Source: an uncultured Lachnospiraceae bacterium
GTDB lineage: Bacteria > Bacillota > Clostridia > Lachnospirales > Lachnospiraceae
Direction of reading: 5' to 3'
Assembly: GCA_944380185.1 (NCBI GenBank)
Contig: CALWGV010000064.1
Span: 1-43,065, forward strand
DNA: 43,065 nt
Below, piece by piece: positions 1 through 10,684 of this stretch; the first letter of the stretch is position 1, and each line of letters opens with the position of its first letter. The translations under genes were made by a program, and so were the position numbers. The notes beneath the pieces are model-generated. The model worked only from the letters and a program-made list of their open reading frames with translations, was not told the origin of the DNA and did no database searches.

Positions 1-58
1 TTCGATGTGTTTTAGCGTCCAAAAAACAAATAATTTACAGGAAAAGAGAGAAAAATAC

Positions 59-87
59 TTGCCTTTCTGAGAGACTTGCTTTATAAT
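59..87 (+). promoter_or_regulatory. Sigma-A promoter of the radical SAM peptide locus
   Basis: TTGCCT at 59-64 and a consensus TATAAT at 82-87 are separated by exactly 17 bases. Transcription would start near 94, about 80 bases before the GTG start of the first gene. No other good promoter is visible before the two precursor genes, so it probably drives the whole locus. Confidence 0.7.
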
Positions 88-129
88 ATGGTCTGTAAGT
101 TCAACTGTTATAAAGTGTACTATTTGATT

Positions 130-152
130 GATATCCCTTGACAAGAGATATC
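130..152. promoter_or_regulatory. Operator-like dyad in the leader of the peptide locus
   Basis: GATATC at 130-135 and 147-152 flank CTTG and CAAG arms, giving an interrupted 23-bp palindrome centred on one base. An RNA hairpin with a one-base loop is unlikely, so this fits a DNA site for a dimeric regulator better than an attenuator. It lies about 35-60 bases downstream of the predicted start of transcription and before the ribosome binding site. No regulator gene for it is visible in the window. Confidence 0.45.
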
Positions 153-176
153 TGAGAGGAGAGAAGAAGGTGTTGC

Positions 177-587
177 GTGAAAGAGTATAAGGGACCGGAG
201 TACCATTTTGTTTGTAGTCCGGGCGGACTGAGCGGCAACGAGCTTGCAAAACTGTCAGATGACGAGCTGACCAGATATCTCAATCAAGATAGTTATCTAC
301 AGGAAAAGAAAAAATACCGAATCAGGTCTGGATACATACTGAGAGAAATCGCCGGGGAATATGCCATTATTCCAGTGAATGTAGATAGTGTATTTTCTAA
401 TGCGTTGATGGCACCGAATGAAACAGCGGCATTTTTATGGAATGCTTTTCAGAAACCAAGTACGATACAAGACGTGGTGATGCGTGGATTGCTGGAATAT
501 GATGTGGCAGAAGAAATTATACGAAATTCAGTGGAAAATTTCGTGAAGCAATCTTTAGAGTATAAGATCATAGAGGAGGTGGAGTAA
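177..587 (+). CDS. PqqD-like peptide chaperone (RiPP recognition element)
   Basis: A 136-residue protein whose residues ~45-136 have the PqqD fold pattern: YRIRSGYILREIAGEYAIIPV, a loop, then an NETAAFLW helix and a helical tail with hydrophobic repeats. In known systems such domains bind the leader of a precursor peptide and present it to a radical SAM enzyme. The first ~45 residues are an extra N-terminal segment (PGGLSGNELAKLSDDELTRYL) that I do not recognise. The start is GTG, about six bases after AGAAGAAGG. The stop is one base from the ribosome binding region of the first precursor, so translation is probably coupled. The PqqD assignment is firm by pattern and context; the partner role is inferred from the adjacent precursors and radical SAM gene. 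Confidence 0.8.
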   Translation: MKEYKGPEYHFVCSPGGLSGNELAKLSDDELTRYLNQDSYLQEKKKYRIRSGYILREIAGEYAIIPVNVDSVFSNALMAPNETAAFLWNAFQKPSTIQDVVMRGLLEYDVAEEIIRNSVENFVKQSLEYKIIEEVE

Positions 588-589
588 TA

Positions 590-1036
590 ATGAAAAAGAT
601 ATGGGAAGACCCCAGAATTGATGTTCAGATATTTGCTCCGAACGAGTATGTTGCGGCATGCGTTGTGGGTACTATCGAGTGTGCAATACCTGGTCATGAC
701 AGATATTCCTGTGATGGATCATCACCAACACGAAATTTTAATTATATGATTGACGGAGGTCAATGGGGTGGACCAACTATCCCTCAGGATGGCCTTGATC
801 ATGGAATATGTGGAAACTCTGCTCCGATTTCATTTAATGGAAGTACTGGAAGCGGATATGAAACAATAGGTGGGGAAATTCAAAGGAATCGACCAATTTA
901 TAATATTTCGGGTTACGAGTTGAATCCAGGAACATACAAAGTAACTTGGAATAGTGATAGCGGTGGACCTACATACAATCATTATGGTGAGTTGAATATT
1001 AGCTATATTGATTATGATCATCCAAATCATTCATAA
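590..1036 (+). CDS. Putative RiPP precursor 1, NEYVAAC leader family
   Basis: A 148-residue protein of no family I can name. Its first 24 residues, MKK-x-WE-x-PRI-x-VQ-x-FAPNEYVAAC, are almost identical to the N-terminus of the next gene, while the rest differs. That is the usual layout of a conserved leader and a variable core. Cys lie at 24, 31, 41 and 74. The body is rich in Gly, Asn, Ser, Tyr and Pro (GGQWGG, NGSTGSGYETIGG) and has few Lys. There is no Sec signal peptide or membrane segment. It starts two bases after the PqqD-like gene, with GAGGAGG in that gene's end as ribosome binding site. At 148 residues it is long for a RiPP precursor, so a small modified protein is possible. Function is inferred from context only. 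Confidence 0.65.
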   Translation: MKKIWEDPRIDVQIFAPNEYVAACVVGTIECAIPGHDRYSCDGSSPTRNFNYMIDGGQWGGPTIPQDGLDHGICGNSAPISFNGSTGSGYETIGGEIQRNRPIYNISGYELNPGTYKVTWNSDSGGPTYNHYGELNISYIDYDHPNHS

Positions 1037-1102
1037 ATTTAGCAAACGAATAATTTTTAAAATGCAATTAATAGTTGAAGATTGAGAGGGAGGATACCTA
1101 AA

Positions 1103-1492
1103 ATGAAAAAGAAATGGGAAGAACCAAGAATTATGGTTCAACAGTTTGCACCGAATGAATATGTAGCAGCATGTTACAATATAAGGTGCAATGTACCATC
1201 TGGTGTAGGATATTATGAAACTAATGGAGAGCCAGGATATCAGAGAGGTTCATGGTTTGAAGAGGGCGATGAATTTATTGCAAGTGGAACCGGATGCGGT
1301 ATAACACATTATGGAGTTCCTGGAGTGCCGGACGATGGGCCAGTTGCAAATGCCATGTGGCAGGAATCTTGGAGCGGAAGGTATTATCCTGTTTATTACT
1401 GGGAACAGGGGCAATCTAGCTGGGAGCACAGTAGTTCACATTTTAGTAAAGTCGAAGATGCAGAGTGGGAAAAGAATCCAAATGCTTCATAA
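1103..1492 (+). CDS. Putative RiPP precursor 2, NEYVAAC leader family
   Basis: A 129-residue paralogue of the preceding protein. The N-terminus MKKKWEEPRIMVQQFAPNEYVAAC matches it at about 19 of 24 positions. After residue 24 little aligns beyond a short Cys-Val/Ile-Pro motif (C29-N-V-P here, C31-A-I-P there) and a later Gly-Cys-Gly (C65). The body is rich in Tyr, Trp, Gly and Ser (YYPVYYWEQGQSSW), with a polar tail. I chose the ATG at 1103 because it restores the shared leader and has GGGAGG nine bases upstream; an upstream in-frame start at 1082 would add seven residues with no good ribosome binding site. A hairpin terminator follows, which would raise precursor output over the enzyme. Confidence 0.65.
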   Translation: MKKKWEEPRIMVQQFAPNEYVAACYNIRCNVPSGVGYYETNGEPGYQRGSWFEEGDEFIASGTGCGITHYGVPGVPDDGPVANAMWQESWSGRYYPVYYWEQGQSSWEHSSSHFSKVEDAEWEKNPNAS

Positions 1493-1526
1493 GTTCTCAG
1501 AACAGTACATATTTCAAAGATTACAG

Positions 1527-1556
1527 ACGGATGATCAGAGCTGGTCATCCGTTTTG
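1527..1556 (+). terminator. Hairpin with T-run between precursors and radical SAM gene
   Basis: ACGGATGA (1527-1534) pairs with TCATCCGT (1545-1552) around a ten-base loop and is followed by TTTTG. A short partial terminator at this place would give more transcript for the precursors than for the enzyme downstream, a common RiPP arrangement. Confidence 0.6.
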
Positions 1557-1581
1557 TGATAATAAAATAATAGGAGAAACT

Positions 1582-2709
1582 ATGGACCCGATAGAATACC
1601 AGGGAAATATAGAACGTTTTTTGTGTGAAAAAGCAACTATCAATCATACGCCAATCAACGCCATCTTAGAATTAACGCCTCTATGTAACATGAACTGTGA
1701 TATGTGTTTTGTGCGGTTAGGTCCGGAAGAAATGAGACAAAAGGGACGTTTAAGAACTACAGAGGAATGGATTTCTCTTGGAAAAGAAATGTGCGATGCC
1801 GGAACGCTCTTTGTACTGCTAACAGGAGGAGAACCGTTACTATATCCAGGATTTCGTGAGACCTATACAGCTTTAAAAAAGATGGGAATGATATTAACGG
1901 TCAATACAAATGGAACACTGATCAATGAAGAGTGGGCGGATTTTTTTGCAAAGCATACTCCACGCAGAATCAATATTACGTTATACGGCAAAGATAATCG
2001 TACTTATCAGAAGCTATGCCATTATCCTGAAGGCTTTCAGAAGACGATCAAGGCAATAAGGTTGCTTCGAGAACGAGATGTAGATGTAAAAATCAATGGA
2101 AGCATAACTCCCGAAAATATAGAAGACTTGGATGATTTATTCTCAATAGTAGAGCGGATGGGCGTTGTATGGAAATTTGATACTTATATGTATCCCGCTT
2201 CCAGGGAAAGAGAAGCTAAGTTTGATGATAGATCCAGGCTGACAGCTGATGATGCAGCCGCCGCCCGGGTTAAATTGATAGAGAAAAGAGAGGGGAATGA
2301 AAACTTTTCTTCGTTTGCTCGAAATTTCATAAAACAGGGAGAGGCGGCTCCCGGAGATTATATTGCACCTACTGTAAAATGTCGCGCCGGAAGAAGTTCC
2401 TTTGTAATCAATTGGCAGGGAATGATGCGTCCTTGTGTCATGTTGTCTTCACCCGAAGAGGCAGTATTTAATATTGGTTTTATAGCTGCATGGAAAAGGA
2501 TAGTGGAAAAATTTGGCACGATCAGATTAAGCCCAAAGTGTAATGCCTGCACAATGAGAGAAGTATGTCAGACTTGTGCCGCCTGTGCAAAGTTGGAAAC
2601 AGGAAGTTATGGAGATATGCCAGGATATATGTGTCAGTATACTGAACAAACCTTGAAGTTAATGAAAGAAGCATTGGCAGGAAAACAGACGATAGAAAAT
2701 AATGAATAA
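1582..2709 (+). CDS. Radical SAM/SPASM peptide-modifying enzyme
   Basis: A 375-residue radical SAM protein. The SAM-cluster motif is C35-x3-C39-x2-C42 in TPLCNMNCDMC, followed by the GGEPLL glycine motif and an NTNGTLI strand. The C-terminal ~100 residues hold a SPASM-type set of Cys (KCRAGRSSF, RPCVM, KCNAC, REVCQTCAAC, YMCQY), which normally ligates auxiliary Fe-S clusters in enzymes that modify ribosomal peptides. The start at 1582 has AGGAG (1572-1576) in front and gives the family's normal length; the reading frame continues upstream without a good start. With the PqqD-like gene and two precursor-like genes it makes a complete minimal RiPP locus. The chemistry (thioether, C-C crosslink, epimerisation or other) cannot be told from sequence. 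No transporter or protease gene is adjacent. Confidence 0.88.
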   Translation: MDPIEYQGNIERFLCEKATINHTPINAILELTPLCNMNCDMCFVRLGPEEMRQKGRLRTTEEWISLGKEMCDAGTLFVLLTGGEPLLYPGFRETYTALKKMGMILTVNTNGTLINEEWADFFAKHTPRRINITLYGKDNRTYQKLCHYPEGFQKTIKAIRLLRERDVDVKINGSITPENIEDLDDLFSIVERMGVVWKFDTYMYPASREREAKFDDRSRLTADDAAAARVKLIEKREGNENFSSFARNFIKQGEAAPGDYIAPTVKCRAGRSSFVINWQGMMRPCVMLSSPEEAVFNIGFIAAWKRIVEKFGTIRLSPKCNACTMREVCQTCAACAKLETGSYGDMPGYMCQYTEQTLKLMKEALAGKQTIENNE

Positions 2710-2879: not shown

Positions 2880-3698
2880 ATGGAGATGAAATACAGAGAT
2901 CTCTCAGGTATGCGGATAGGTAAGTTAACCGTTATAGAGCCTACAGAAAAACGAATTCGAAAAGCGGTTGTATGGCGGTGCCGCTGCGAATGCGGGAATG
3001 AAATACTGGTGGAGAGCCGCCGGCTGAAGCTGGGCGTAATTTTTAGCTGCGGCTGTGAGGGGTCCCCTTATGATGGGGTCAAAGATTTGACGGGCTGTCA
3101 TTTTGGAAAACTGGTGGTCGAAGGCCGGTCCGGAAATAAAGCCAAGGACGGGAATCCTCTTTGGCTCTGCCGGTGCGAGTGCGGGAAGGAAATCGAGACG
3201 ACGAAGCATAAGCTGATAAGCGGCGGAGTGACAAGCTGCGGCTGCGGAAAGAGGCCGCCGTTAAAAGAATGGGTGGGAAAGCGCTTCGGCGCACTGACCG
3301 TCCTGTCTTATGCCTGCAGGGAGAACGGCTTTCACTTCTGGCATTGCAGATGCGACTGCGGAAAAGAACTGAATGTGCGTCAGTCCCATCTTCAGAACGG
3401 CTGGACGAGAAGCTGCGGCTGCCTGCGTCAGCCTCAAAAGAATCTGCACTATGAAAGCGGCACCTGTGTGGAGATGCTCCAGACCGATGTCATGTATAAA
3501 AGCAATACCAGCGGGGTGCGGGGCGTCTACTATAATAAAAAACGTCATAAATGGGTTGCTCAGATTGTATTTAAGCGAAAATGCTATTATCTGGGCGGAT
3601 ATGACCAGATCGACGATGCGGCGGAAGCCAGAGCGGAAGCCGAAGAGAATCTTTTTGGCGATTTTTTAAAATGGTATGCTGCGACATATAAAAAATAA
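2880..3698 (+). CDS. Triple zinc-ribbon protein with C-terminal AP2-like DNA-binding domain
   Basis: A 272-residue protein built from three repeats (about residues 7-58, 68-122, 130-182). Each has GxxxGKLTV-like, then CRCECG or CRCDCG, then SCGC, so four to five Cys per unit fit for zinc. Residues ~205-260 (NTSGVRGVYYNKKRHKWVAQIVFKRKCYYLGGY) resemble the AP2/ERF-like domain of phage integrases and homing endonucleases. It most likely binds DNA. No nuclease or integrase catalytic domain is visible, so it may be a regulator or a relic of a mobile element. The start is uncertain: ATG at 2880 or 2886, neither with a strong ribosome binding site. The protein is more G+C-rich than the peptide locus before it. 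Confidence 0.7.
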   Translation: MEMKYRDLSGMRIGKLTVIEPTEKRIRKAVVWRCRCECGNEILVESRRLKLGVIFSCGCEGSPYDGVKDLTGCHFGKLVVEGRSGNKAKDGNPLWLCRCECGKEIETTKHKLISGGVTSCGCGKRPPLKEWVGKRFGALTVLSYACRENGFHFWHCRCDCGKELNVRQSHLQNGWTRSCGCLRQPQKNLHYESGTCVEMLQTDVMYKSNTSGVRGVYYNKKRHKWVAQIVFKRKCYYLGGYDQIDDAAEARAEAEENLFGDFLKWYAATYKK

Positions 3699-4385: not shown

Positions 4386-4477
4386 TAGGAAGCGATGAAA
4401 AGGGCCTAGGTTCTTTTTTTTGTGCCTTGAAAATAGACAAAGCAATGTAAAACAAATGTGAGTTGGAGGTGTACACG

Positions 4478-4627
4478 ATGCGCACGAGAATTACTTTGGC
4501 ATGTACCGAGTGCAAGCAGCGGAATTATAACATGACAAAAGAAAAGAAGCTGCACCCTGAGAGAATGGAGACGAAGAAGTACTGCCCGTTCTGCAAGAGA
4601 CATACGATGCATAAGGAAACCAAATAA
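4478..4627 (+). CDS. rpmG: 50S ribosomal protein L33
   Basis: A 49-residue L33, beginning [17 protein letters not shown]. It has two CxxC pairs (CTEC and CPFC), the zinc-binding form of the protein. GGAGGTG lies seven bases before the ATG. It is followed by secE and nusG, the standard order upstream of the L11 operon in Firmicutes. The gene is short enough to be missed by length filters. Confidence 0.93.
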
Positions 4628-4654
4628 TCAGCCGGATCAGAGAGAGTGATTGCA

Positions 4655-4843
4655 ATGGAAGAAGCAAAGAAGAAAACCAGCAAGTGGAAAACGCTGAAAG
4701 CCGAATTCAAGAAGATCATCTGGCCGGACAAGAAGACCATAGGGAAGCAGACGGTGGCTGTTATTACGCTGTCCATCTGCATCGGCCTGATTGTGGGCTT
4801 GCTGGATATGGTGGTTAAATATCTGGTCGGCTTCATTGTCTGA
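4655..4843 (+). CDS. secE: Preprotein translocase subunit SecE
   Basis: A 62-residue SecE of the short Gram-positive type. The amphipathic region WKTLKAEFKKIIWPDKKTI carries the conserved WP, and one membrane helix follows (residues ~30-60). SecE clamps the two halves of SecY in the protein-export channel. The ATG at 4655 is preferred; a GTG at 4646 would add three residues. nusG follows 20 bases later. Confidence 0.93.
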   Translation: MEEAKKKTSKWKTLKAEFKKIIWPDKKTIGKQTVAVITLSICIGLIVGLLDMVVKYLVGFIV

Positions 4844-4863
4844 TTATAGGGTAAGGTGATTGT

Positions 4864-5379
4864 ATGGCAGAAGCAAACTGGTATGTGGTTCATACCTACT
4901 CAGGTTATGAGAACAAAGTAAAGATGGACATCGAGAAGACCATCGAGAACCGCAAGCTGCACGATCAGATCCTGGAAGTCTCCGTGCCCATGCAGGACGT
5001 GGTGGAACTGAAGGACGGCAAACGGAGAACCGTGGCCAAAAAGATGTTCCCCGGCTATGTTCTGATTAACATGGTGATGAACGACGAGACCTGGTATGTT
5101 GTCCGCAATACCCGCGGTGTCACCGGCTTCGTGGGTCCGGGATCCAAGCCTGTGCCTCTGTCTCCGGAGGAGATCGAAGCGCTGGCGGGCGGCGAGAGCC
5201 CTGTGGTGGTGGATTTCGAGGTGGGCGATCTGGTGACGGTCACTTCCGGCGCCTGGGAGGGTACGGCAGGAGTCGTTGCGTCCATCAATGAGAGCAAGCA
5301 GAGTGTCATCATCCATGTAGATATGTTTGGCCGGGAGACACCGGTCGAGCTCGGCTTCGACGAGATCAAGAAGCTGTGA
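4864..5379 (+). CDS. nusG: Transcription elongation/termination factor NusG
   Basis: A 171-residue NusG. The NGN domain starts WYVVHTYSGYENKVK and contains MFPGYVLINMV and RNTRGVTGFVG. The C-terminal KOW domain (~120-171) has GDLVTVTSGAWEGTAGVV. NusG binds RNA polymerase and couples it to Rho or the ribosome. It lies in its usual place between secE and rplK. Confidence 0.96.
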   Translation: MAEANWYVVHTYSGYENKVKMDIEKTIENRKLHDQILEVSVPMQDVVELKDGKRRTVAKKMFPGYVLINMVMNDETWYVVRNTRGVTGFVGPGSKPVPLSPEEIEALAGGESPVVVDFEVGDLVTVTSGAWEGTAGVVASINESKQSVIIHVDMFGRETPVELGFDEIKKL

Positions 5380-5484
5380 CAGACAGAGTTTTGTTTTTCG
5401 TTTTTTCATTTTCACGCGTGTGAGATTTTTTGCGCCGGGCGCAGGAAATCTTCATGATAGCGGCGATTGTCCGGAGAAGGGACG

Positions 5485-5570
5485 AGACTGCCGCAGGTGG
5501 GAGGGATTTTCCCGCTGGTACCACAACACCTTCGTGTTGTGTCCGGGGTTAGCCCGGGACATTAAAAATT
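5485..5570 (+). promoter_or_regulatory. Structured leader between nusG and rplK
   Basis: The ~205 bases between nusG and rplK contain no gene but are highly structured. The segment GTGGGAGGG ... ACCAC is a pattern I associate with this position in other Clostridia. It is followed by a perfect hairpin (CACAACAC-CTTC-GTGTTGTG, 5522-5541) and a second one (5541-5560), directly before the rplK ribosome binding site. By analogy with other ribosomal-protein leaders it may bind L1 or L11 for feedback control; that is inference. Confidence 0.45.
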
Positions 5571-5584
5571 AGGAGGTGCCAAAA

Positions 5585-6010
5585 ATGGCAAAGAAAGTAA
5601 CTGGTTACATCAAATTACAGATTCCTGCCGGCAAAGCCACTCCGGCTCCGCCGGTTGGTCCTGCGCTGGGTCAGCACGGTGTGAATATCGTGCAGTTCAC
5701 CAAGGAATTCAACGCCAGAACCGCCGATCAGGGCGATCTGATCATTCCTGTGGTGATCACGGTTTACGCCGACAGAAGCTTCAGCTTCATTACCAAGACT
5801 CCCCCGGCTGCTGTGCTGCTCAAGAAGGCCTGCAAGCTGAAAACCGCTTCCGGCCAGCCCAACAAGAACAAGGTGGCCAAGATCTCCAGAGAAGAGGTCC
5901 GCAAGATTGCCGAGCTCAAGATGCCTGACCTGAACGCGGCCAGCGTCGAGGCTGCCACCAGCATGATCGAGGGTACCGCCAAGAGCATGGGTATCGTAGT
6001 AGAGGACTAA
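5585..6010 (+). CDS. rplK: 50S ribosomal protein L11
   Basis: A 141-residue L11 with the diagnostic segments [29 protein letters not shown] and [16 protein letters not shown]11 forms the GTPase-associated centre of the large subunit. AGGAGG lies eight bases before the ATG at 5585. rplA follows after a 14-base gap. Confidence 0.97.
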
Positions 6011-6024
6011 TGGAGGAGTAAGGA

Positions 6025-6720
6025 ATGAAAAGAGGAAAGAAATATATCGAGAGCGCTAAGCTGGTAGACCGCACTCAGCTGTACGACACCGAGGAGGCCG
6101 TAGCTCTGGTGAAGAAGACCGCCGGCGCCAAGTTTGATGAGACCGTTGAAGTTCATATCCGCACAGGCTGCGATGGCCGTCATGCCGATCAGCAGATCCG
6201 CGGCGCTGTCGTACTGCCTCACGGCACCGGCAAGACTGTCCGCGTGCTGGTGTTTGCCAAGGGCGTAAAGGCCGATGAGGCGCAGGCTGCCGGAGCAGAC
6301 TATGTAGGCGGCGAGGAGCTGGTTCCCCGCATTCAGAAGGAAGGCTGGCTTGATTTCGATGTGGTTGTGGCTACCCCCGATATGATGGGTGTGGTCGGCC
6401 GTCTGGGCCGTGTTCTGGGCCCCAAGGGCCTGATGCCCAACCCCAAGGCCGGTACGGTTACCATGGACGTGACCAAGGCTATCGCCGATATCAAAGCCGG
6501 TAAGATCGAGTACAGACTGGACAAGACCAACATCATTCACTGCCCTATCGGAAAGGCTTCCTTTACCGAGGAGCAGCTGGCTGAAAATTTCAAGGCACTG
6601 ACCGACGCCATCATCAAGGCGAGACCCGCCGCAGTGAAGGGCCAGTTCTTAAAGAGCGTGACCCTGACCTCCACCATGGGCCCCGGCGTCAAGGTCAACC
6701 CCATCAAGCTGCAGGCATAA
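6025..6720 (+). CDS. rplA: 50S ribosomal protein L1
   Basis: A 231-residue L1 ([16 protein letters not shown] ... [15 protein letters not shown]). L1 forms the mobile stalk next to the E site and in other bacteria represses its own L11-L1 mRNA. The stretch at residues ~128-145 is the family's most conserved region. It is followed by a new promoter and the L10 leader. Confidence 0.97.
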
Positions 6721-6745
6721 TCGCCGCATAAGCGCGATAAAAGGC

Positions 6746-6774
6746 TTGACAGCCCGATGGTTTTGTGATATGGT
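6746..6774 (+). promoter_or_regulatory. Promoter of rplJ-rplL
   Basis: A perfect TTGACA (6746-6751), 17 bases, then TATGGT (6769-6774). Transcription would begin close to 6781, exactly at the start of the L10 leader. Confidence 0.75.
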
Positions 6775-6780
6775 GTCAAA

Positions 6781-6900
6781 AGTAAAACTGCCGAAGACAG
6801 CAGGTACCCTTTGGGTGTAAGCACCGTCGCCTGCCGAGGAAGATGAGATTTTTGATAGGAATCCTTATGCCCTCTTTGTCTTTTGGCAAAGAGGGTTTTC
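6781..6900 (+). ncRNA. Ribosomal protein L10 leader with terminator
   Basis: The segment CTGCCGAAGACAGCAGG ... CCGTCGCCTGCCGAGGAAG is the characteristic L10-leader motif of Firmicutes, which binds the L10-(L12)4 complex for autogenous control. It ends in an intrinsic terminator: CCCTCTTTG (6870-6878) pairs with CAAAGAGGG (6887-6895), followed by TTTTCTCTTTT. Excess L10 would favour termination before rplJ. Confidence 0.88.
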
Positions 6901-6947
6901 TCTTTTAAACTCACCGGCGGTTGAAAAAATAATAAGGAGGAAAAAAG

Positions 6948-7436
6948 ATGGCAAAGGTAGAATTGAAACAGCCTGTAGTTGCCGAGATATCCGATCTTCT
7001 GAAGGATGCCAAGGCAGCTGTGCTGGCAGATTACCGCGGCCTGACCGTGGAGCAGGACACTGCTCTGCGCAAGCAGATGAGAGAAGCCGGCGTCACCTAC
7101 AAGGTGTACAAGAACACTATGCTGAACTTTGCGTTCAAGGGCACGGATTATGAAGCCATGGCCGGCAAGCTGGAAGGCCCCACGGCTCTGGCTGTGTCGA
7201 GCACGGACGCTTCCGCTCCGGCCAGAATTCTGTATGAGTTCGCCAAGAAGGCTCCGGCTCTGGAGTTGAAGGGCGGCGTGGTGGAAGGCACCTACTACGA
7301 CGAGAAGGGTATCCAGGTGATCGCTACGATCCCCAGCAGAGAGGTCCTTCTGGGCAAGCTGCTTGGCAGCATTCAGTCCCCTATCGCCAACCTGGCCCGC
7401 GTTCTCAACCAGATCGCCGAGTCCAAGGAGGCCTAA
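6948..7436 (+). CDS. rplJ: 50S ribosomal protein L10
   Basis: A 162-residue L10 (AKAAVLADYRGLTVEQDTALRKQMREAGVTYKVYKNT). It anchors L7/L12 dimers at the stalk. AAGGAGG precedes the ATG at 6948 by eight bases. It lies downstream of its own leader and before rplL. Confidence 0.97.
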   Translation: MAKVELKQPVVAEISDLLKDAKAAVLADYRGLTVEQDTALRKQMREAGVTYKVYKNTMLNFAFKGTDYEAMAGKLEGPTALAVSSTDASAPARILYEFAKKAPALELKGGVVEGTYYDEKGIQVIATIPSREVLLGKLLGSIQSPIANLARVLNQIAESKEA

Positions 7437-7513
7437 TGCTGTCCGCAGCATAAACTGGAACTTATATTTTCGTATCATTCATATTTTAATTTTTGAAAAC
7501 GGAGGAAATAAAA

Positions 7514-7885
7514 ATGGCAAAGTTGACTACTGCTGAGTTTATCGAAGCGATCAAAGAGCTGAGCGTTCTGGAGCTGAACGAGCTGGTAAAGGCCTGCGAG
7601 GAGGAGTTCGGTGTATCCGCCGCTGCTGGCGTGGTTGTGGCTGCTGCCGGCCCTGCTGCTGAGGCTGAGGAGAAGACCGAGTTCGACGTGGAGCTGACCG
7701 AGATCGGTTCCGAGAAGGTTAAGGTTATCAAGGCTGTTCGTGAGCTGACCGGCCTGGGCTTAAAGGAAGCCAAGGACGCTGTGGACAGCGCTCCCAAGGT
7801 GCTGAAGCAGGGCGTGTCCAAGGAAGAGGCAGAGGCTGCCAAGAAGGCTCTGGAGGAAGTTGGAGCCAAGGTTACCCTGAAATAA
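7514..7885 (+). CDS. rplL: 50S ribosomal protein L7/L12
   Basis: A 123-residue L7/L12 with the N-terminal dimerisation domain ([30 protein letters not shown]), an Ala-rich hinge (~38-52) and the factor-binding C-terminal domain ([29 protein letters not shown]). GGAGG precedes the ATG at 7514. In nearly all Firmicutes rpoB follows; here the sequence runs into degraded insertion elements. Confidence 0.97.
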
Positions 7886-8324: not shown

Positions 8325-9024
8325 CGAAAACTTTATGGTCTTTAGTTTCCCAGACTTGCTCCCTGGTCTTTTAGATCGGACAATAGAGATCTCAGATCTG
8401 CATTCATATATTTATGAATAGTTCTGCTGCTGTTTCCAGATAGACCTTTATGCTGCGGTAGCCATCAATACCGTTATGGCTGTGGTAGACTTCTTCGATC
8501 TGATCGTAGACCTCTGCTCTTTTGGCGTAATAATCTGCCTTTCGGTGTTTCTTTATAATAGGCATTCAGATAGATTTTCGATCGCCGCAATTACCAGCGA
8601 ACACCGAATTCTTCATGATACTGGTCAATGAATCGGTAAGCTCCTAACCGATTTTTTTTGCAAAGAATGCCACTGCTTTTTTAGGAAGGCAATCTCTTTG
8701 TGTAACTCTTCATTCTCATGTTTTAACCGAAGGTTTTCTTTCATGGAATCATAATCTTCTTTGTCCTGAGAGCTCATCTGGCAGTCTTCGCGGAACTCAC
8801 TGCGCCATTTAGAAATACTGGTTTTGGATATACCATACTCAGCAGTGATGTTTTTGTGGGTTCGCCCCTCCTCTTCGTGGAGACGAACAATCTTCTTTTT
8901 GAATTCGGGAGTGTAATTTTGTGACATAATGAGTATTTCTTTTCTGCTTCTGTTTTTGATTACATCTCATTAGCCACTCTCGCTACGACTTTATTATAGC
9001 ACTTTATAGGACTGGGAGTGGACA
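8325..9024 (-). mobile_element. IS3-family element remnant
   Basis: On the minus strand an intact orfA (8625-8927) is followed by a broken orfB. Recognisable orfB pieces in different frames are YRFIDQYHEEFGVRW, then ADYYAKRAEVYDQIEEVYHSHNGIDGYRS, then IHKYMNADLRSLL. The upstream end is TGTCCACTCCCAGTCC (minus strand, ending at 9024), an inverted-repeat-like terminus starting with TG. The DDE core and right end are lost, so the element cannot move by itself. Confidence 0.75.
8625..8927 (-). pseudogene. IS3-family OrfA (remnant element)
   Basis: The frame encodes 100 residues. The N-terminus MSQNYTPEFKKKIVRLHEEEGRTHKNITAEYGISKTSISKWRSEF is the helix-turn-helix of IS3-family OrfA, and residues ~60-85 form the leucine-zipper coiled coil (ENLRLKHENEELHKEIAFLKK). 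After LKK the frame runs into unrelated residues. A -1 shift at the C-TAAAAAAG run gives the expected AVAFFAKKIG and then a stop, as in programmed OrfA-OrfB frameshift sites. Since orfB is broken, the gene is probably inert. Confidence 0.75.
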
Positions 9025-9418: not shown

Positions 9419-10681
9419 TTATACTTTAGACAAGGTGAGAGTATATCCACCACCTGCAGGAAAGCCATTGGTGTATGATGCAAATACATTGATTTTGTCT
9501 TTGGCCTCACCTCCTAAATGAGAAGGAACCAAGTGTGCATGCAAATCATTTGGATTAGGAGGAATTATTTGGTACCGGAAAATGTACTTTCTCCATCTTC
9601 TACTTTTCAAAAAGTTCCCCGTAAAATTTGCTCTTATGCAATATTGACCACATGGGTATTCTATAACTTTTGATTGAAAAAAGAGATCGGGACTAATTTC
9701 ATAGGTGCTTTCATAGATAACTTGATCGCTACTGTGAGCTTTTGTTTTAACTTCAATAACCCCGCTCGAGATATACGGCGACCAATTATCTTTGGCTGAA
9801 TTTTTCGGCTTATATCTCCGTACTAGACCTGAGGTTGTTTCCCCGTTTACAATTACCTTGCCATCTTCATAAGATTTTAATCCTTGGTCAATCTTTAAAA
9901 ATTGAGACGAAAAAGTCTGGATTATATCTGTGTCAGAAAGGTTTACAATAACATAAGAAGTAATTGTCCTTACTCGTATCTTCCCTTTGGTTTCGCCTTT
10001 ACTGATAACAATATTTCTTTCATATTCTTTGTAAAACACATAATTTTCCGATCTATCTTTCTGATTAAAAACCGTTAGGTTACGTGTTTTTAAATATGCT
10101 TGTTGAAGCGCTAACTTTGCTCTTTCTTGGTCATTTTTTTCGGCCCAATTGACCGATAAATTATCAATAATAGGAAGTCTATTTCTATAATGTACAATTT
10201 TAGTTTGAAAACATTCACATGTTAACGCTTGTTGATCTCGATTTACATTTATTAGATGAAGTTTCTTGACTTCCTCTTGTAGTCTTTCTGCTAATGCAAC
10301 AGGAAAAAATGTTGTGTCAAAGCGATATTGGTAATAGTCAGAACCGATAAATCCGGCGTGTTCTCCATTTCTGATTCCAGGCAATGTTATTACAAGCTTG
10401 GTGGACGGTTGCCCTTTACTTCGGATTACTCCAGATTCATTAAGGCAGTATTCACTTTTTTTGTATTCGTTTGATAAAACAATGATATCTAACCTTGTTT
10501 TTTTGAGTGCTGCAAACACGTCATCCGAGATCTTATCATGAACACCCGATCTATAGTCGGAACTACAGAAAATGTTTTCTCTCTTAACCCCTAAGCTTAC
10601 TAAATAATTGAGTAGCAGAGTTACAAAATCCTTATTCTTTTCCGAATGACTAATAAAAATTTTCTTTTTTCCTTTCATCAT
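9419..10681 (-). CDS. TIR-domain protein with unrecognised C-terminal domain
   Basis: A 420-residue protein. Residues ~5-130 form a TIR domain: KIFISHSEKNKDFVTLLLNYLVSLGV, then NIFCSSDYRSGVHDKISDDVFAALKKTRLDIIVLSNEYKKSEYCLNESG, where the Glu of CLNE is at the position of the catalytic Glu of NADase TIR domains. Bacterial TIR proteins often kill or arrest the cell by NAD+ destruction after sensing phage. Residues ~165-420 are predicted beta-rich with a basic patch (KSRRWRKYIFRY) and a Gly-rich end (GFPAGGGYTLTL); I recognise no family, and it may be the sensor. There are no membrane helices. GGGGG lies seven bases before the ATG at 10681. It is A+T-rich and surrounded by element remnants, so probably acquired. 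No partner gene is adjacent. Confidence 0.78.
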   Translation of the reverse strand: MMKGKKKIFISHSEKNKDFVTLLLNYLVSLGVKRENIFCSSDYRSGVHDKISDDVFAALKKTRLDIIVLSNEYKKSEYCLNESGVIRSKGQPSTKLVITLPGIRNGEHAGFIGSDYYQYRFDTTFFPVALAERLQEEVKKLHLINVNRDQQALTCECFQTKIVHYRNRLPIIDNLSVNWAEKNDQERAKLALQQAYLKTRNLTVFNQKDRSENYVFYKEYERNIVISKGETKGKIRVRTITSYVIVNLSDTDIIQTFSSQFLKIDQGLKSYEDGKVIVNGETTSGLVRRYKPKNSAKDNWSPYISSGVIEVKTKAHSSDQVIYESTYEISPDLFFQSKVIEYPCGQYCIRANFTGNFLKSRRWRKYIFRYQIIPPNPNDLHAHLVPSHLGGEAKDKINVFASYTNGFPAGGGYTLTLSKV

Positions 10682-10684
10682 CAC

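Follow-up and report, generated by a model that had tools for sequence, protein, structure and literature searches.

The 43,065-nucleotide window analysed here is a stretch of contig CALWGV010000064.1 (C64; assembly GCA_944380185.1) from an uncultured Lachnospiraceae bacterium, and its first 2,709 bases carry four genes in tight order on one strand. This operon-like block (window 1-2709) encodes a PqqD-like protein, two proteins with a common N-terminus (precursors A and B), and a radical S-adenosylmethionine (SAM)/SPASM enzyme (Table 1). All four genes, named in a preliminary description made from the letters of the sequence, are confirmed, and the reading frames bear out the lengths of 148 and 129 residues given there for the precursors. 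A plausible ribosome-binding site is visible by eye at each of the four genes. Positions 59-176 lie upstream of the first gene; the promoter-like sites of the region number 11 versus 9.5 in shuffles, a weak excess. Base 1 of the window is also the start of the contig, so genes upstream of the PqqD-like gene are cut off and the absence of a protease or exporter can be judged only downstream of the block. The locus has the gene-level hallmarks of a ribosomally synthesized and post-translationally modified peptide (RiPP) system: ribosomal precursors that join a conserved leader to a variable core, accompanied by genes for a recognition element and a modifying enzyme.

Table 1. Features of the gene block and its immediate surroundings (positions are those of the window)
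Feature	Position	Strand	Remarks
Promoter-like site TTGCCT-17-TATAAT	59-87	+	10/12 consensus matches; upstream of the block
PqqD-like protein	177-587	+	GTG start; 136 aa; PF05402 E 8.4e-11
Precursor A	590-1036	+	148 aa; leader 590-661 (MKK..WxxP...NEYVAAC); 4 Cys in total; C-terminal ...HPNHS, Ser codon 1031-1033
Precursor B	1103-1492	+	129 aa; leader 1103-1174; 3 Cys (C24, C29, C66); C-terminal ...NPNAS, Ser codon 1487-1489
10-bp hairpin followed by TTTT	1527-1552	+	between precursor B and radical SAM gene; possible partial terminator
Radical SAM/SPASM enzyme	1582-2709	+	375 aa; PF04055 E 1.2e-26
AP2-domain protein	2880-3698	+	PF00847 E 3.9e-8; homologue in L005

The leaders of precursors A and B are identical at 20 of 24 residues, and 8 of those 20 are encoded by different synonymous codons, indicating that the likeness is held at the protein level and does not stem from a recent DNA copy. 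Chance or a copy artefact as the source of the common leader is rejected on the same ground. Past the leader the two bodies are unlike (best BLAST E 1.1), consistent with the original observation of a common N-terminus of about 24 residues on different bodies. NCBIfam and Pfam scans return nothing for either precursor.

Across the family, the leader is tied to the enzyme. A degenerate DNA pattern coding NEY[VIM]A[AV]C was searched in 397 family genomes independently of the enzyme, with the reversed pattern as control. The pattern occurs at 15 places in 10 genomes, all of them within 3.3 kb of a member of this radical SAM subfamily, while the reversed pattern occurs at none in the 397 genomes. 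By coordinates, 14 of the 15 places lie within 1 kb of the radical SAM gene; the exception (genome G135, locus L018) is on the strand opposite to the enzyme gene, 3.3 kb from it, and a PqqD gene follows the motif after 10 bases. The enzyme is carried by 27 of the 397 genomes, and these include every one of the 10 with the motif (hypergeometric p 3.5e-13, uncorrected for relatedness). A motif widespread away from radical SAM genes, which the preliminary description had named as the outcome that would contradict it, is not seen. Twelve viral contigs with the bare motif have no such leader by eye and look like chance matches, and a scan with a precursor alignment finds no viral relative.

The PqqD-like protein carries an N-terminal extension of about 45 residues and matches the NCBIfam model lasso_PqqD_Bac under its cut-off (E 7e-5). 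Both window leaders are of the [W/Y]xxP type, as bound by the recognition elements of lasso peptides and of linear polyphosphorylated peptides (LPPs). Discrete lasso and LPP recognition elements bind [W/Y]xxP, with W in Bacillota paeninodin-type leaders and Y in LPP leaders (PMC13381572); leaders of Lachnospiraceae lasso precursors carry WxxP (PMC7533575). In the present loci, W leaders pair with PqqD proteins that read SNA, ENT or ENS, and Y leaders with proteins that have Gly at the third site. Among 23 pairs the counts are W/non-Gly 9, W/Gly 1, Y/Gly 13 and Y/non-Gly 0 (p 1.2e-5, uncorrected for relatedness). Of the 36 curated precursors defined below, this table omits 8 with no PqqD in the locus as called and 5 whose PqqD lies at least 3.5 kb away, a limit set in the analysis script; without the limit, all 28 pairs divide into W/non-Gly 9, W/Gly 2 and Y/Gly 17. 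L015 counts among the 8 owing to an over-short call of its PqqD frame; when the frame is extended upstream, the site holds Thr, and the leader there is of the W type. The enzymes of L013 and one L033 locus (W) and of L019 (Y) fall in one clade (100/99) and serve the same core family, while leader and PqqD differ together. The leader and PqqD switch while enzyme clade and core family stay, a pattern taken to mean that leader and PqqD travel together as a module separate from the one formed by enzyme and core. Together, the motif-enzyme linkage and the leader/PqqD co-variation are comparative evidence for the original proposal that the PqqD/radical SAM pair has the two proteins as its substrates, which is now very probable. 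As a side observation, three PqqD proteins carry K.YK.PE.HFV in their N-terminal extension (window 177-310; L005 8000-8467; L033 18591-19019); it resembles the WxxP leader that these proteins would be expected to bind, and might be a pseudo-leader.

The radical SAM enzyme has CxxxCxxC at C35/C39/C42 and, by eye, a SPASM-type C-terminal cysteine set, CX12GX4C ... CX2CX5CX2C ... C. The SPASM profile PF13186 scores 18.1 bits, below its cut-off of 21.5. No named maturase equivalog is matched, as the best 25 of 75 NCBIfam matches are all under their cut-offs; the enzyme matches ScmE and ScmF in this way (E 3e-21 and 5e-17, under the curated cut-offs). By sequence, the nearest solved structure is SkfB (E 5e-14). 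Thioether cross-links are the first guess at the chemistry since the precursor cysteines are conserved, and aromatic C-C or C-O links are the second. Distribution of the enzyme is patchy, which points to horizontal transfer: at E 1e-60 it is found in 27 of 397 genomes and 25 of 334 genera of the family and in 4 of 341 genomes of the class, two of these outside the family and 35% identical. Within the genus, one of 7 genomes carries the enzyme at E 1e-50, and it is the source genome itself. A search of one protein against genome contigs yields one truncated locus.

Precursors were collected by a rule that requires a cysteine after the leader. It gave 41 open reading frames (ORFs), of which 5 were dropped by eye as antisense or off-frame (ends F, W, S, Q and P), leaving 36 curated precursors; two L029 precursors and an L030 candidate fall outside the rule, and the count excludes the precursors of L062 (end T) and L063 (end S). 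The leader ends in [VI]-A-[AS]-C in 17 of the 36, both window precursors included, with close variants in most others. By the signal-peptidase site rule, this leader end resembles such a site, though without a hydrophobic stretch. A C-terminal serine closes 32 of the 36 curated precursors (33 of the 41 by rule) versus 82 of 888 ORFs of at least 100 aa from the same loci, spurious ones included. Precursors of the NEYVAAC type comprise one core family that ends mostly in TAKS (alignment A1) and others that end in HPNRS or NPNAS (alignment A2); the leader, C24, a second cysteine and the terminal serine recur in both alignments, with one A2 row ending one residue past the serine. Exactly four cysteines are present in 25 of the 36 precursors, and precursor B has three. 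The bodies are long and fall into families with conserved Cys, His and Trp (alignments A1 and A2), and they differ widely between loci, even within one genome. Solved structures give no match up to E 10 for A2 and four chance-level matches (E at least 0.25) for A1, and structure prediction from the window sequences only has mean predicted local distance difference test (pLDDT) scores of 40.6 and 31.2, too low for use. A second set consists of shorter precursors of 76-99 aa, mostly ending in F[NAST]S, that accompany more distant enzymes. Loci of this second set are adjoined by large proteins of one BLAST cluster that look secreted by eye (L025 3155-7915, L026 9857-12490, L027 2213-5215, L022 9815-13747); these are possible partners or targets of the modified peptides.

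The source genome (84% complete) holds three further homologues of the enzyme, with 41-53% identity. At C38:24 kb (L013), PqqD, precursor and enzyme genes are joined by an HPr-kinase-like gene, an MsbA-like ATP-binding cassette (ABC) exporter and a signal-peptidase-like protease, with glycosyltransferases seen by eye. The C41 cluster (L014) combines a precursor, enzyme, PqqD, kinase and PF14907 nucleotidyltransferase, with Wzz/CpsD-type genes by eye. The third locus, C38:56 kb (L005), is complete and nearly repeats the window layout with PqqD, one precursor, enzyme and AP2-domain protein. A kinase profile finds two kinases in the genome, on C38 and C41, both beside sister radical SAM genes.

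The association was also counted over the whole set of loci. These were chosen on the radical SAM gene or the motif, never on the kinase; five of them served as seeds for the kinase profile. Of 46 radical SAM genes, 40 have an HPr-kinase-like gene no more than 5 kb away, and for 29 the distance is at most 500 bp; the 5-kb counts for the other components are 30 for PqqD, 21 for the exporter, 15 for the SpI-like protease and 13 for the nucleotidyltransferase. The His, Lys and one Asp of the His-Lys-Asp-Asp set are invariant in alignment A3 and in 37 kinases, and matches of the kinase to solved structures are mostly phosphoenolpyruvate carboxykinase (PEPCK) and HPr kinase, all of them weak (E 0.013 to 1). 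The best NCBIfam match of the protease is archaeal-type signal peptidase I (E 2.6e-7, under cut-off), with Peptidase_S24 just under cut-off; SMxP is present in 14 of 14 such proteases in the loci and the HR motif in 13 of 14. In the paeninodin system, PadeK and its kin phosphorylate the C-terminal serine of the precursor, a residue that is conserved in systems with a kinase of this type; in the pseudomycoidin system a nucleotidyltransferase-like enzyme adds a hexose (PMC9266682). The LPP peptidase is described as needing the recognition element for leader cutting (PMC13381572).

The gap between precursor B and the enzyme gene (1493-1581) folds with z -4.4, and none of 200 shuffles is as stable. 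A simple terminator scan does not list the window hairpin. To place it among its relatives, 13 type A precursor-enzyme gaps were chosen, one of them an overlap, leaving 12 to fold (the gaps of L015, L018, L021, L028 and two of L035 were left out). Stems of at least 10 pairs, with differing sequences, occur in 10 of the 12, the window's included, and nine of the 12 reach a z of -2 or below; the L014 gap has z near zero. A hairpin in this position fits the production of more precursor than enzyme. A separate oddity is the 395-base precursor-enzyme gap of L016 (795-1189), which has a very strong inverted-repeat structure (z -9) and the look of an inserted element.

At most, it is moderately probable that the block is a RiPP operon representing a radical SAM branch of the paeninodin/LPP machinery, with protein-sized cores that are probably cross-linked and, where a kinase is available, C-terminally phosphorylated. 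From the known motif and the co-variation, the PqqD-like protein would bind WxxPxI of the common leader. It would then present both precursors to the single radical SAM/SPASM enzyme, which would modify cores of 124 and 105 residues. An HPr-kinase-like enzyme, supplied in trans by the C38 and C41 clusters or encoded by an unseen upstream gene, might phosphorylate the C-terminal serine. A signal-peptidase-like protease, encoded in a sister cluster or, again, by an unseen upstream gene, would cut the leader near its V-A-A/C end, and an MsbA-like exporter would secrete the product. Precursor levels may be held above enzyme levels by the hairpin that separates precursor B from the enzyme gene.

Several observations weigh against this proposal. 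No kinase, protease or exporter is present in the visible part of the window locus, whose upstream side is cut by the contig end; the earlier statement that no protease or exporter is adjacent thus stands for the downstream side and is not judgeable upstream. The complete C38:56 kb locus likewise lacks kinase, protease and exporter while keeping the terminal serine. Its bareness agrees with the earlier description of a minimal locus, whereas the cut contig and the kinase, ABC exporter, signal-peptidase-like protease and nucleotidyltransferase of the sister clusters make that label uncertain. Four of the 36 curated precursors end in T, W, L or V, and the L029 precursors (end A) and L030 candidate (end Q) have a kinase 5.9 and 0.5 kb away. 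Further points concern the kinase assignment: the DD pair of HPr kinase reads GD, with Gly for the first Asp, in 34 of the 36 kinases in which the site was found (of 38); the proteins have no Pfam HPr kinase match and only NCBIfam matches under cut-offs (best for the L013 protein is ScmC, E 3.7e-7); and solved HPr kinases are matched only weakly (E 0.4-0.7). Agreement between core type and the enzyme tree also seems to be partial. The three HPNRS enzymes group together (100/99), and the window enzyme stands beside that of L032 (99/97), whose precursor also ends in NPNAS; the enzymes of L037 and L035 beside NPNAS-type precursors branch elsewhere, and TAKS enzymes are found on several branches.

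Much of this bareness would be expected of a plain radical SAM RiPP resembling sactipeptides or ranthipeptides, in which the four visible genes suffice, the terminal serine and the neighbouring kinases are irrelevant to this locus, and a general protease and exporter finish the product. Both the visible window locus and the complete C38:56 kb locus do without the accessory genes, and the conserved cysteines, exactly four in most precursors, and SkfB as nearest solved structure fit thioether chemistry. Such an account is nonetheless unlikely: the terminal serine is kept in both kinase-less loci of a genome with two kinases elsewhere, which would be needless for an irrelevant residue, and none of the best 25 of the enzyme's 75 NCBIfam matches reaches its cut-off.

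The long bodies, with their conserved Cys, His and Trp, might instead be folded carrier proteins, with the enzyme using the precursors to build a small cofactor or an enzyme-bound prosthetic group in the manner of PqqE and MftC; heme-pathway enzymes, the mycofactocin maturase and PqqE are among its nearest NCBIfam models, all matched far under cut-offs. The wide variation of the bodies between loci and inside one genome is unlike a conserved cofactor precursor, and no partner dehydrogenase was noticed, none having been searched for, making this origin quite improbable. It is hardly credible that the WxxP leader belongs to a paeninodin-type lasso or LPP pathway with the radical SAM gene as a bystander. 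Lachnospiraceae lasso precursors do have WxxP leaders (PMC7533575), and the sister clusters do hold a kinase, nucleoside triphosphate (NTP) transferase, signal-peptidase-like protease and exporter; against this, the motif places always lie beside a radical SAM gene, the leader is without the LPP motif YxxPxVLxHQxIxFETxxS, and the source genome, 84% complete, gives one match under cut-off for PF13471 (lasso B2 type) and one fragment at cut-off for PF00733 (cyclase type), neither on the locus contig. The lasso reading is set aside for want of a convincing B2 or cyclase in that genome.

Some features of the surroundings were also noted. Downstream of the radical SAM gene, two of the genome's four loci encode an AP2-domain protein (the window's and L005 5476-6450); it may be mobile or a regulator, and is possibly not part of the system. 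The window locus lies near genes like rpmG, secE, nusG, rplK and rplA (window 4463-7885), and in another genus a distant radical SAM/HPrK locus (L027 7726-14765) lies directly upstream of genes like these, making the site a possible recurrent insertion site. A TIR-domain protein at 9419-10684 on the minus strand (PF13676 E 1e-6), near a transposase-like ORF (8625-8927), is a possible defence gene. The block has a GC content of 39.8% versus 54.7% for positions 4463-43065; low GC as proof of transfer was dropped, as other 2.7-kb stretches of the window range from 37.5% to 61.5%, some of them just as low.

The preliminary description could not match the precursors to a named RiPP class. They can be placed beside the paeninodin-type lasso peptides and the LPP family (PMC13381572), and the statement holds insofar as they belong to neither. 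The [W/Y]xxP leader and the PqqD-like B1 protein of paeninodin-like systems are both present. The locus is not filed as a paeninodin or LPP member because convincing lasso enzymes are absent and the leaders lack the LPP motif. No publication dealing with these precursors, or with a RiPP family that pairs radical SAM and HprK-like enzymes, was found in the open-licence literature among the matches listed.

The wider set of loci resembles LPP clusters (LppA, K, B, S, D, N) in several ways. LPP clusters hold a discrete RiPP recognition element (RRE), a [Y/W]xxP leader, an HprK-like kinase, an archaeal-type signal peptidase (SpI), an NTP transferase and an MsbA-like exporter, and share with the present loci capsule-type surroundings, one to three precursors of 35-200 aa and a patchy distribution (PMC13381572). 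At the window locus itself the RRE alone is seen, the contig being cut upstream. There are also differences: the phosphorylated serine of LPPs is core position 3 and not the C-terminus, their leader motif is not that of the leaders here, and the term "radical SAM" is absent from the main text of that paper (PMC13381572), whereas the motif precursors of the present loci have a radical SAM gene next to them. The paeninodin/pseudomycoidin lasso systems (PadeK, PsmK, PsmN) share the WxxP leader, PqqD-like B1, HPr-kinase-like enzyme, C-terminal serine and, in some clusters, a nucleotidyltransferase (PMC9266682). They differ in their B2 and lasso cyclase, and the cores of 124 and 105 residues compare with 18-44 in the lasso table rows available from PMC7533575. 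In one locus outside the family, L062 (145-297 and 3495-3668), a lasso-like precursor seen by eye (WxxP leader, Ser end) shares a 5.2-kb contig with a radical SAM/PqqD/HPrK/signal-peptidase-like set whose own precursor ends in Thr, an arrangement that resembles published paeninodin-LPP neighbourhoods.

Other radical SAM systems share features with the locus. In the SynChlorMet cassette, ScmC is matched by the kinase-like protein of L013 and ScmE/ScmF by the radical SAM enzyme, all under curated cut-offs. The sactipeptide and ranthipeptide maturases SkfB, AlbA and PapB have radical SAM and SPASM-type cysteines and cysteine-bearing substrates in common with the enzyme here; their NCBIfam models are matched far below cut-off, and the RRE here is a separate protein. 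Known substrates of these maturases are also far shorter.

Radical SAM maturases and the paeninodin/LPP machinery with its phosphorylation have been treated as separate RiPP worlds, which the locus would link. It provides substrates of protein size for a radical SAM enzyme and, with two of them for one enzyme, a setting in which specificity can be studied, and L013 and L033 versus L019 provide a natural case of joint change in leader aromatic and RRE residue within one enzyme and core family. If the terminal serine is phosphorylated, a common role of C-terminal phosphates becomes testable in anaerobic gut-type bacteria. A bolder and distinctly tentative proposal is a third, radical SAM class beside the phosphorylated lasso peptides and the LPPs, in which one chassis of leader, RRE and kinase is combined with a cyclase, with a radical SAM enzyme or with nothing further; the cores here, about 105-125 residues long, would be internally cross-linked and carry a C-terminal (poly)phosphate or sugar-phosphate, possibly for capsule attachment.

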